64,000 nucleotides of DNA. Source: an uncultured Pelagibacteraceae bacterium. Lineage in GTDB: Bacteria; Pseudomonadota; Alphaproteobacteria; Pelagibacterales; Pelagibacteraceae. Location of the stretch: contig CACFGT010000003.1 in the NCBI GenBank assembly GCA_902565935.1, positions 1 to 64,000 on the forward strand, read 5' to 3'. A program made the position numbers and the translations under genes. A model generated the notes under the pieces. That model saw nothing but the letters and a program-made list of their open reading frames with translations, was not told where the DNA came from and did no database searches. Positions 3,708-34,720 of this stretch are shown here, in pieces. Position 1 is the stretch's first letter, and the number at the start of each line of letters is the position of its first letter.

Positions 3708-4068
3708 AGTGCCAGATAAATGACTTGTCGCTTTAAGAGATTAAAGAGGAAAGTCCGGGCTCCACAAGGATACAGTGCCAGATAATTTCTGGCAGGGGTA
3801 ACCCTAGGGATAGTGCCACAGAAAATAAACCGCCATAACATGGCAAGGGTGAAAAGGTGTGGTAAGAGCACACCGGTTCTATTGGTAACAATGAACGCTG
3901 GAAAACCCCACTGGGAGCAAGGCTAAGTAGAGATAACATTGTTTAAAAACTAAAAGCCATCCTTGGCTAGTTATCAGGGTTAGCCGCTTGAGCTTAAGAG
4001 TGATCTTAGGCCTAGAGAAATGATAAGTTTAAATGACAGAACCCGGCTTACAGTTTATCTGGCACATT
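3708..4068 (+). ncRNA. rnpB: RNase P RNA (class A)
   Basis: Diagnostic GAGGAAAGTCCGGGCTCCAC and GACAGAACCCGGCTTA; terminal P1 pairing AGTGCCAGATAAA / TTTATCTGGCACATT. Confidence 0.95.
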
Positions 4069-31631: not shown

Positions 31632-31682
31632 TGATAGATGTTATTTATATATAATAAAATTCGATTAACTTACAGGAGCAAA

Positions 31683-32057
31683 ATGACAAATTTCAAAAAA
31701 GTTGGTGTATTTATGAAAACTTTTGGACAAGAAGTTAAAAATAAACCTTCATTTAGTACTGAAAAAATCAACCAACTAAGAATTAGCTTAATTCAAGAGG
31801 AACTTGATGAATTAAAAGAAGCTATGACTAACAATGATTTGTTAGAAGTTGCTGATGCATTGACTGATTTATTATATGTAACTTATGGTGCAGGACATTC
31901 TTTTGGCATAGATTTAGACAAATGTTTTAATGAAGTTCAAAATTCAAATATGAGTAAATTAGGTGAAGATGGAAAACCTATTTACAACGAATTTGGTAAA
32001 GTTATGAAAGGACCAAATTATTTTAAGCCCGATTTAAGTAAATTTGTTAATAAATAA
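31683..32057 (+). CDS. MazG-like/phosphoribosyl-ATP pyrophosphohydrolase-like NTP pyrophosphohydrolase (listed ORF starts 31638)
   Basis: LIQEELDELKEAM...EVADALTDLLYVTYGAG: ExxE and ExxD motifs. Confidence 0.85.
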   Translation: MTNFKKVGVFMKTFGQEVKNKPSFSTEKINQLRISLIQEELDELKEAMTNNDLLEVADALTDLLYVTYGAGHSFGIDLDKCFNEVQNSNMSKLGEDGKPIYNEFGKVMKGPNYFKPDLSKFVNK

Positions 32058-32199: not shown

Positions 32200-32219
32200 T
32201 TATCTATCTTTTATTAACA

Positions 32220-32240
32220 GGGGCGTTCTGTGTCCCCCGA
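32220..32240 (+). repeat. Partial copy of the 5' end of the 33470 RNA element
   Basis: GGGGCGTTCTGTGTCCCCCGA vs GGGGCGTTCTGTTGCCAGGTGCCCCGA; preceding TTATTAACA resembles TTTAATAA. Confidence 0.6.
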
Positions 32241-32279
32241 TAACCAAATCATACCAAAATACCTAGGTTATTTAAATAC

Positions 32280-32343
32280 TTCATTGAAGACTTCATTGAA
32301 AGTTTGACCTTTTTTCAAAAACCTTGTTTCTAGACTTCATTGA
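32280..32343. repeat. TTCATTGAA repeat cluster (left copy)
   Basis: TTCATTGAA at 32280 and 32292; TTTCTAGACTTCATTGA near 32327-32343. Confidence 0.75.
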
Positions 32344-32394
32344 GAATTGGGGCAATTTCAAAAGAATGTCATAATTAGAGTTTAATATCTTATT

Positions 32395-32676
32395 ATGAAA
32401 AAAAAATTAAAAATTATATTTTTTTCATTTTTATCATTTCTTTTGCTGTTAATAATTATTTCTGGTGAAGATCCAGCATGGGTGGAATGCTCAGATGAGA
32501 ATGATTTATATAGATATGTCTATGATGGTTGGAAGGTAGATGAAGTTATGAAAAATTATAAAGGAGAATATCCTCGGATATATTTATCAAAGAACGATAG
32601 AATTAAAGCATTGAACTTTGGTTGGAGATGCTATTATCTTGAAGGCGCAGAATTGAATTATAGAAAATCAATGTAA
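32395..32676 (+). CDS. Hypothetical protein with N-terminal TM/signal
   Basis: 93-aa ORF with hydrophobic N-terminus. Confidence 0.55.
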   Translation: MKKKLKIIFFSFLSFLLLLIIISGEDPAWVECSDENDLYRYVYDGWKVDEVMKNYKGEYPRIYLSKNDRIKALNFGWRCYYLEGAELNYRKSM

Positions 32677-32789
32677 TGATTGAAAAATTAAGAACAATTA
32701 TAGCATATGTGTTAGCGTTAACTTGGAGTTCTATTGTAGTTTTATTCATGGTGCTTCCTTTTTATGCTCTTTATTTAAATAATTTTTAA
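32676..32789 (+). CDS. 37-aa putative small membrane protein
   Basis: ATG shares a base with the preceding stop (TAATG); MIEKLRTIIAYVLALTWSSIVVLFMVLPFYALYLNNF. Confidence 0.45.
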   Translation: MIEKLRTIIAYVLALTWSSIVVLFMVLPFYALYLNNF

Positions 32790-32795
32790 ATCCTT

Positions 32796-33374
32796 ATGTT
32801 GAATGAACCATCACAACAAATTAAAGAACAGATTTACAAATTTTATATTCAAATTTTTGAGTCATCTTTTGATGTTCAAAAAAAGAAAAATCTCTTAACG
32901 TCAATCGCAGGTTGGGAGGAATGGAGTTGGAGAGTAGTTGGTATATCAGTTAGAGCAGTAGGTAAAATTTTAGATCAAAAGGGTCATGCTAGAGTAAAGT
33001 CAGAACTTGTTAGAGATCATTTTTTTCAAGGTAGATCTGTGACATATAATAATATGTTAAAAACAAAACTTAACTTCGAAGATTATTGGAAAGAATTTTG
33101 GGATAATGATCGAACAATTTTAATGACAAAAGATGAACATAATAAGATTAGTACTGATAAATTTACTGGATTGTGGGAAAATATTTCAGATAAAGTGTTT
33201 GAAATTGATTGGAAATTAGGAAATTTTAAATCAAACAAAGTTGCTGGATTTCATTTCACAAAACAAAAAGAAGGATTTTTTGTATTACAGAATTTTGAAT
33301 TTAAAGTTGAAAAAAAAACAGATAATTCAAACAGTGGTGAGGAATTTTATTATGTTAAAAAAAAAGGTTATTAA
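32796..33374 (+). CDS. Hypothetical protein, no recognised family
   Basis: 192-aa ORF right after the small ORF. Confidence 0.6.
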   Translation: MLNEPSQQIKEQIYKFYIQIFESSFDVQKKKNLLTSIAGWEEWSWRVVGISVRAVGKILDQKGHARVKSELVRDHFFQGRSVTYNNMLKTKLNFEDYWKEFWDNDRTILMTKDEHNKISTDKFTGLWENISDKVFEIDWKLGNFKSNKVAGFHFTKQKEGFFVLQNFEFKVEKKTDNSNSGEEFYYVKKKGY

Positions 33375-33383
33375 TTAAATCTA

Positions 33384-33424
33384 GTTTCTAGACTTCATTG
33401 AAACTTCATTGAATCTTCATTGAA
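33384..33424. repeat. TTCATTGAA repeat cluster (right copy)
   Basis: GTTTCTAGACTTCATTGAAACTTCATTGAATCTTCATTGAA; TTCATTGAA at 33394, 33405, 33416. Confidence 0.8.
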
Positions 33425-33469
33425 CTTTATTTTTATAAAATGAGTATGGATAAGGGAATCCTTTAATAA

Positions 33470-33728
33470 GGGGCGTTCTGTTGCCAGGTGCCCCGAACCC
33501 CGTTTACTTAATTAACAAAGTTAATTAAGCAGCAAGTGCGTAACTTTCGTTAGCAATTATAAATTAGCCCGTTACGGTGGAACAATTCCGAACGAAAGAA
33601 TAGCCTTTAGTCACCCGTCGAATCTGGTTCACCCCCATAAGTTGTAAATGGTGGAGGTGGTGGGTACTGCCCCCACGTCCGCAATGGTTATTACGAAATT
33701 CGTTTATCGTCATAGTTGGAAAACCAAC
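33470..33728 (+). ncRNA. GC-rich structured RNA candidate, identity not assigned
   Basis: Strong composition contrast in an AT-rich genome and several perfect stems: CTTAATTAAC/GTTAATTAAG, CTTTCGTT/AACGAAAG enclosing GGAA-CAA-TTCC, GTGGG/CCCAC, ACGAA/TTCGT, terminal GTTGGAAAACCAAC; no long ORF. Confidence 0.7.
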
Positions 33729-33772
33729 ATGTTTAATATAAAAGTAATTGATTAAGATTCAATAAATTATTC

Positions 33773-34720
33773 ATGAAATTAACTCAAGAACAACAACAAG
33801 AAATTAAAGATCAACAGTCTCAAGAAAATAAAACTAAAAGAGTAACAGTAGCGGAACTTGAAAACATATTATATGAGGCGATACCAATTTTAGATCACGG
33901 TTTTATAAGAGTAATTGATTACATGGGAGATGACACATCAATTGTTCAAGCAGCTAGAGTTTCTTATGGTAAAGGCACAAAAAAAGTATCAACTGACTCA
34001 GGCTTAATTAAATATTTAATGAGGCACTGGCATAGTACTCCTTTTGAAATGTGTGAAATTAAGTATCACGTAAAGCTTCCAATTTTTATTGCCAGACAAT
34101 GGATCAGACATAGAACTGCAAATGTGAACGAATATTCAGCAAGATACTCTATTTTAGATAAAGAATTTTATTTACCTGCTGTTGAAAATTTAGCAGCACA
34201 ATCCCAAAGCAATCGACAAGGAAGAGGAGATATACTTACCGGAGATCAAGCAAAAAAAGTTCTAGATTTATTAAAAAAAGATGCTGAACAAACATACGAT
34301 AATTATGAAACAATGCTTAATGAAAGATACGATGGTTCAGTCATTGATGAAAAACAAGTTGGTTTAGCAAGAGAGCTTGCAAGAATGAATTTAACTCTAA
34401 ACACTTATACGCAGTGGTACTGGAAAACAGATCTTTTAAACTTAATGAATTTTTTAAGATTAAGAGCTGATCATCATGCACAATATGAAATAAGAGCTTA
34501 TGCGGATGCTATGCTTGATACAGTAAAAAAATGGGTCCCAATTACATATGATGCATTCATGGATTATAGAGTGGGTGGAACTGAAGTATCCTCAAAAGGC
34601 AAAAAGATAATTCAAAAATTGATTGGTGGGGAAGAAATTGATGCTGAAAAATCAGGATTATCTAAGCGAGAATGGAATGAGTTAATGACTGCTTTTGATC
34701 TAAAAGATAAGTTGATATAG
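33773..34720 (+). CDS. thyX: FAD-dependent thymidylate synthase ThyX
   Basis: ThyX signature [15 protein letters not shown]. Confidence 0.97.

Follow-up and report, generated by a model that had tools for sequence, protein, structure and literature searches.

A tmRNA, as is well established, is charged, enters stalled ribosomes in an SmpB-dependent manner and adds a tag. The closest described relative of the locus treated here is the tmRNA of 'Candidatus Pelagibacter ubique', which is both split and permuted and is encoded between thyX and COG4696 (Meyer et al. 2009, PMC2704228). This form made the P. ubique tmRNA hard to recognise (PMC2704228), and permuted tmRNAs are easily overlooked by eye because the tRNA halves stand in swapped order. 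At the level of the family, permuted transcripts are cleaved into two pieces by tRNA-processing enzymes (PMC11915505).

Identification of the tmRNA gene

The window, a stretch of 64,000 nt from an uncultured Pelagibacteraceae bacterium (contig CACFGT010000003.1 of assembly GCA_902565935.1), contains a non-coding block at 33470-33728, upstream of thyX, with a GC content of 45.6% against 28.5% for the window; only 0.05% of 259-nt stretches are equally GC-rich. The original prediction, made from the letters alone, described the block as an unassigned structured RNA, and the GC-rich non-coding sequence that it reported is real. When the entire window was scanned against Rfam, three matches were obtained: an RNase P RNA (3712-4066) and two models of tmRNA, both of the latter on the minus strand. 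The alpha_tmRNA model (RF01849) matches in its complete length at 33466-33766 with 229.4 bits (E=3.2e-65), exceeding the curated gathering threshold of 50 bits. The tmRNA_permuted model (RF04321; PMC11915505), which comprises the tRNA-like domain and tag only, matches at 33525-33711 with 128.8 bits over 213/213 positions, with no notable difference. ARAGORN, an independent method, reports a permuted tmRNA at 33434-33743 with the tag ANESYALAA*. Almost certainly, the minus strand at 33466-33766 is the only ssrA gene of a SAR11-type alphaproteobacterium, and the tmRNA that it encodes is circularly permuted and made of two pieces.

The original prediction is borne out in part by this assignment. 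The RNA is a stable non-coding RNA, it is neither RNase P RNA, SRP RNA nor a tRNA, and the impression that the string was familiar from other alphaproteobacteria agrees with its membership of the alphaproteobacterial family RF01849. The label 'unassigned' has to be dropped; a confident match to a known family refutes it in the prediction's own terms. The appropriate annotation of the block is ssrA, minus strand, and a false lead is thereby removed.

The neighbourhood points the same way. The gene is divergent from thyX (33773-34720, PF02511), and a PRA-PH/MazG-like (COG4696-like) gene lies at 31638-32057, so that the order in the window is COG4696-like gene, tmRNA, thyX. Together with the base composition and the small size of the assembly (1.09 Mb), this order indicates that the genome is probably SAR11-type. 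As the same order has been published for P. ubique, the structured RNA of the window is an already known tmRNA (cf. P. ubique 2009). The two loci share a split permuted tmRNA divergent from thyX, a GC-rich intergenic region and the thyX/COG4696 flanks (P. ubique HTCC1062; PMC2704228), but in the window the tmRNA is separated from the COG4696-like gene by ~1.3 kb that contains two ORFs (93 and 192 aa). The two-piece tmRNAs of RF01849, as in Caulobacter, likewise agree with the window in the complete model, the permuted order and a tag ending in LAA, and the T-loop GGCAGTA is also found in other members of the class. The window has a 12-nt spacer and a 9-residue tag, whereas in many others the tag is longer and the spacer reaches up to 58 nt.

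The original prediction gave no strand and offered a long leader of thyX as a second reading. A structured 5' leader or riboswitch of thyX would have to lie on the plus strand, and the position of the block directly upstream of that gene is what speaks for it. No plus-strand Rfam match was found up to E=1 within 33350-33850, the matches of the two tmRNA models and the ARAGORN call are all on the minus strand, and the conserved CCA and the tag frame make sense on that strand only. In view of this strand and family evidence we reject the leader as exceedingly improbable.

The assembly (1.09 Mb) has one copy of ssrA and a single copy of smpB (G000:C2, PF01668, E=5.8e-56), which bears on whether the tmRNA gene could be a pseudogene or a phage-derived copy instead of a working host gene. 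Permuted tmRNA genes are carried by marine phages (PMC9004378), and a mobile island seems to lie next to the locus. Against this, the gene is the sole ssrA of the assembly in a conserved host neighbourhood, its CCA, acceptor stem and tag frame are intact, smpB is retained, and its score is comparable to those of SAR11-type relatives, whereas viral copies score lower (88-156 bits). The phage collection gave no match, phage origin was rejected, and decay or phage descent has a negligible chance of being correct for what we take to be the host ssrA gene.

Structure of the gene and comparative analysis

All features of the ssrA gene are on the minus strand. Within the RF01849 limits (33466-33766) is included a probable promoter at 33735-33762, read from the sequence as TTGAAT (33762-33757), a 16-nt spacer and TATATT (33740-33735), and partly conserved among the aligned relatives. 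By model alignment and helix counts, the acceptor piece is placed at 33649-33728 and comprises a leader hairpin (33728-33715), the 5' strands of P2, the T-arm GTGGG-GGCAGTA-CCCAC (33660-33676), the 3' acceptor strand CACCTCC (33659-33653), the discriminator A and CCA (33651-33649). Within the acceptor strand and its 3' end (33649-33659 in all), CACCTCC pairs with 33636-33630, all seven pairs, among them the one corresponding to G3-U70 (33634 with 33655), being invariant among 21 aligned SAR11-type sequences. The intervening sequence TTTACAACTTAT (33637-33648), 12 nt long, is presumably absent from the mature RNA. The coding piece (33470-33636), delimited in the same way as the acceptor piece, comprises the 5' acceptor strand GGGGGTG, the TTCGACG motif, the 3' strands of P2, a pseudoknot region, the tag frame and a 3' terminal helix GGGGC/GCCCC. 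The pseudoknot region is predicted from the alignment of its sequence to the RF01849 model. The tag reading frame, GCT...TAA at 33525-33554, translates as ANESYALAA*, a short frame with a hydrophobic -AA end, and its stop codon is overlapped by the hairpin CTTAATTAAC-TTT-GTTAATTAAG (33507-33529). The permuted order is confirmed by the positions of the parts: CCA at 33651-33649 comes first, then the spacer at 33648-33637 and the coding piece from 33636.

By analogy with the known family, the transcript would run from the acceptor piece (T-arm, acceptor strand, CCA) through the 12-nt spacer to the coding piece (5' acceptor strand, pseudoknot region, tag frame). The spacer would be removed by tRNA-processing enzymes, and the acceptor stem and P2 pairing would hold the two pieces together. 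The RNA would be charged with alanine (G3-U70). With SmpB, the tmRNA may then enter ribosomes stalled on broken mRNAs and swap templates, adding the degradation tag (A)ANESYALAA before a normal end of translation.

Matches to RF01849 were found in 51/60 genomes of the family and 52/58 of the class. The SAR11-type relatives that were fetched have spacers of 10-13 nt and the tags ANESYALAA, ANESYAIAA, ANDKFALAA and ANEQFALAA; a scripted tag search found none in one such relative (L027). In the alignment of 21 sequences, pairing in the tmRNA helices reaches 93.2%, compared with 38.6-51.3% when the partners are slid, and nine pairs have changed on both sides, although these helix counts were scored against the family-model structure, which favours the tmRNA reading somewhat. 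The covariation score is 0.140 against 0.065 in shuffles and lies above all 500 of them. The tRNA-like domain is complete (acceptor stem, G3-U70, T-arm and CCA), and its elements are invariant or covarying. Pairing in the T-arm is 100%, with two pairs changed on both sides, and in the tag-stop hairpin 94.4% of cells are paired, with three such pairs. Within P2b two adjacent cells (33697 with 33602, 33696 with 33603) are non-standard pairs, and one other P2 pair is non-standard in most cells.

The inverted repeats listed in the original prediction exist as written, except that GTTGG/CCAAC shifts by 1 nt to 33715-33728, but as structure they fared unevenly. Three are conserved parts of the tmRNA, namely GTGGG/CCCAC (the T-arm), GTTGG/CCAAC (the leader hairpin of the acceptor piece) and CTTAATTAAC/GTTAATTAAG (the tag-stop hairpin). 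Three others, CTTTCGTT/AACGAAAG, GGAA/TTCC and CCAT/ATGG, were rejected as structure; they are broken in many relatives and probably fortuitous, since only 81-84% of their cells are paired and the set shows no covariation beyond that of shuffles. ACGAA/TTCGT is conserved in sequence, yet it shares positions with one strand of helix P2 in the tmRNA model. When four of the predicted stems were tested as a set, their covariation was no higher than in shuffles, and three of the four are broken in many relatives.

A 49-aa ORF lies within the tmRNA gene (33564-33713, minus strand) and recurs in seven other loci, presumably owing merely to conservation of the RNA. It could be wrongly annotated as a protein.

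Repeats of the tmRNA end and small islands

The nearest published pattern that we found to the arrangement downstream of these tmRNA genes is the tRNA-Lys repeat island of the Methylophilaceae (PMC10872708); no description of a SAR11 tmRNA-end repeat array was found in the open-licence literature. In relatives, the 3'-terminal ~22 nt of the tmRNA (CACCNGGCAACAGAACGCCCCT) are found again as direct repeats with at most two mismatches, and CACCNGGCAACAGAACGCCCC is the tmRNA-end repeat where island joins would fall. One to seven further copies lie less than 10 kb downstream, on the same strand as the tmRNA, in 22 of 60 genomes, 37 downstream copies in all by a hand tally of repeat against tmRNA positions. 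No copy was seen within 10 kb upstream of the tmRNA in the 60 genomes, and a reversed control pattern gave zero matches in any of them. Further copies are in other places or on different contigs.

In the loci fetched (L062-L085), adjacent repeats are separated by 159-4174 bp. Between them, ORFs of at least 70 aa run 53 against and 13 with the tmRNA strand, a descriptive count only, which includes overlapping opposite-strand ORFs and comes from loci mostly chosen for having repeats. The cargo matches are diverse, including methyltransferases, SelR, trypsin-like proteins, MrcB_N/NOV_C, a superinfection-immunity family and some hits to defence models; no integrase is present in the best 25 of 40 Pfam families among the island cargo. 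By eye, pairs or triplets of short direct repeats, differing in sequence between islands, follow ~45-75 bp downstream of many tmRNA-end repeats. Similar ~70-bp stretches with paired short direct repeats, e.g. GGGCACACATAGGGCACAG and GACGCACTATGGACGCAG, again recognised by eye, occur immediately downstream of the tmRNA-end repeats in L063, L064, L067-L070, L076, L077 and L079, and look like recombinase arm sites.

Phage_integrase-family proteins are single, and not near the tmRNA, in nine of ten genomes checked; the tenth has two. The only match to this family in the genome of the window is at G000:C1:101872-102411 (325-aa frame), and most relatives checked have a similar single protein, which contrasts with the report that P. 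ubique is without dif/Xer (PMC2731167). Eight viral contigs (L087-L094) carry complete permuted tmRNA genes of alphaproteobacterial type, scoring 88-156 bits, in agreement with PMC9004378. A search for a phage attachment site (attP) equal to the tmRNA end found none: all eight viral contigs with an exact match hold complete phage tmRNA genes rather than attP, so that no agent that would move the islands was found.

On balance, we favour the view that very small cargo islands (~0.2-4 kb), apparently lacking a recombinase and presumably mobilised in trans, attach in tandem arrays at the 3' end of SAR11-type tmRNA genes. The window would then contain a single island of this kind, now decayed, at ~32219-33490, to which the 93-aa and 192-aa ORFs would belong. 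If true, this would point to a constant site at which accessory genes enter some of the most streamlined genomes of free-living organisms.

The window itself fits the repeat pattern in part, and approximately 32219-33490 is probably one decayed island. An exact 13-nt piece of the tmRNA 3' end, ACAGAACGCCCCT, lies at 32231-32219; it is weak alone (E=0.65 by blastn against the window), and the piece was picked after the repeats had been seen in relatives. The two ORFs within 32219-33490, at 32395-32676 (93 aa) and 32796-33374 (192 aa), gave no Pfam match. Each has a blastp match to a comparably placed ORF in another genome; for the 192-aa ORF this match is no more than a 53-aa fragment, which lies just past the last repeat. 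Six of the ten copies of TTCATTGA in the window are near the two island ends, at 32280, 32292 and 32336 and at 33394, 33405 and 33416.
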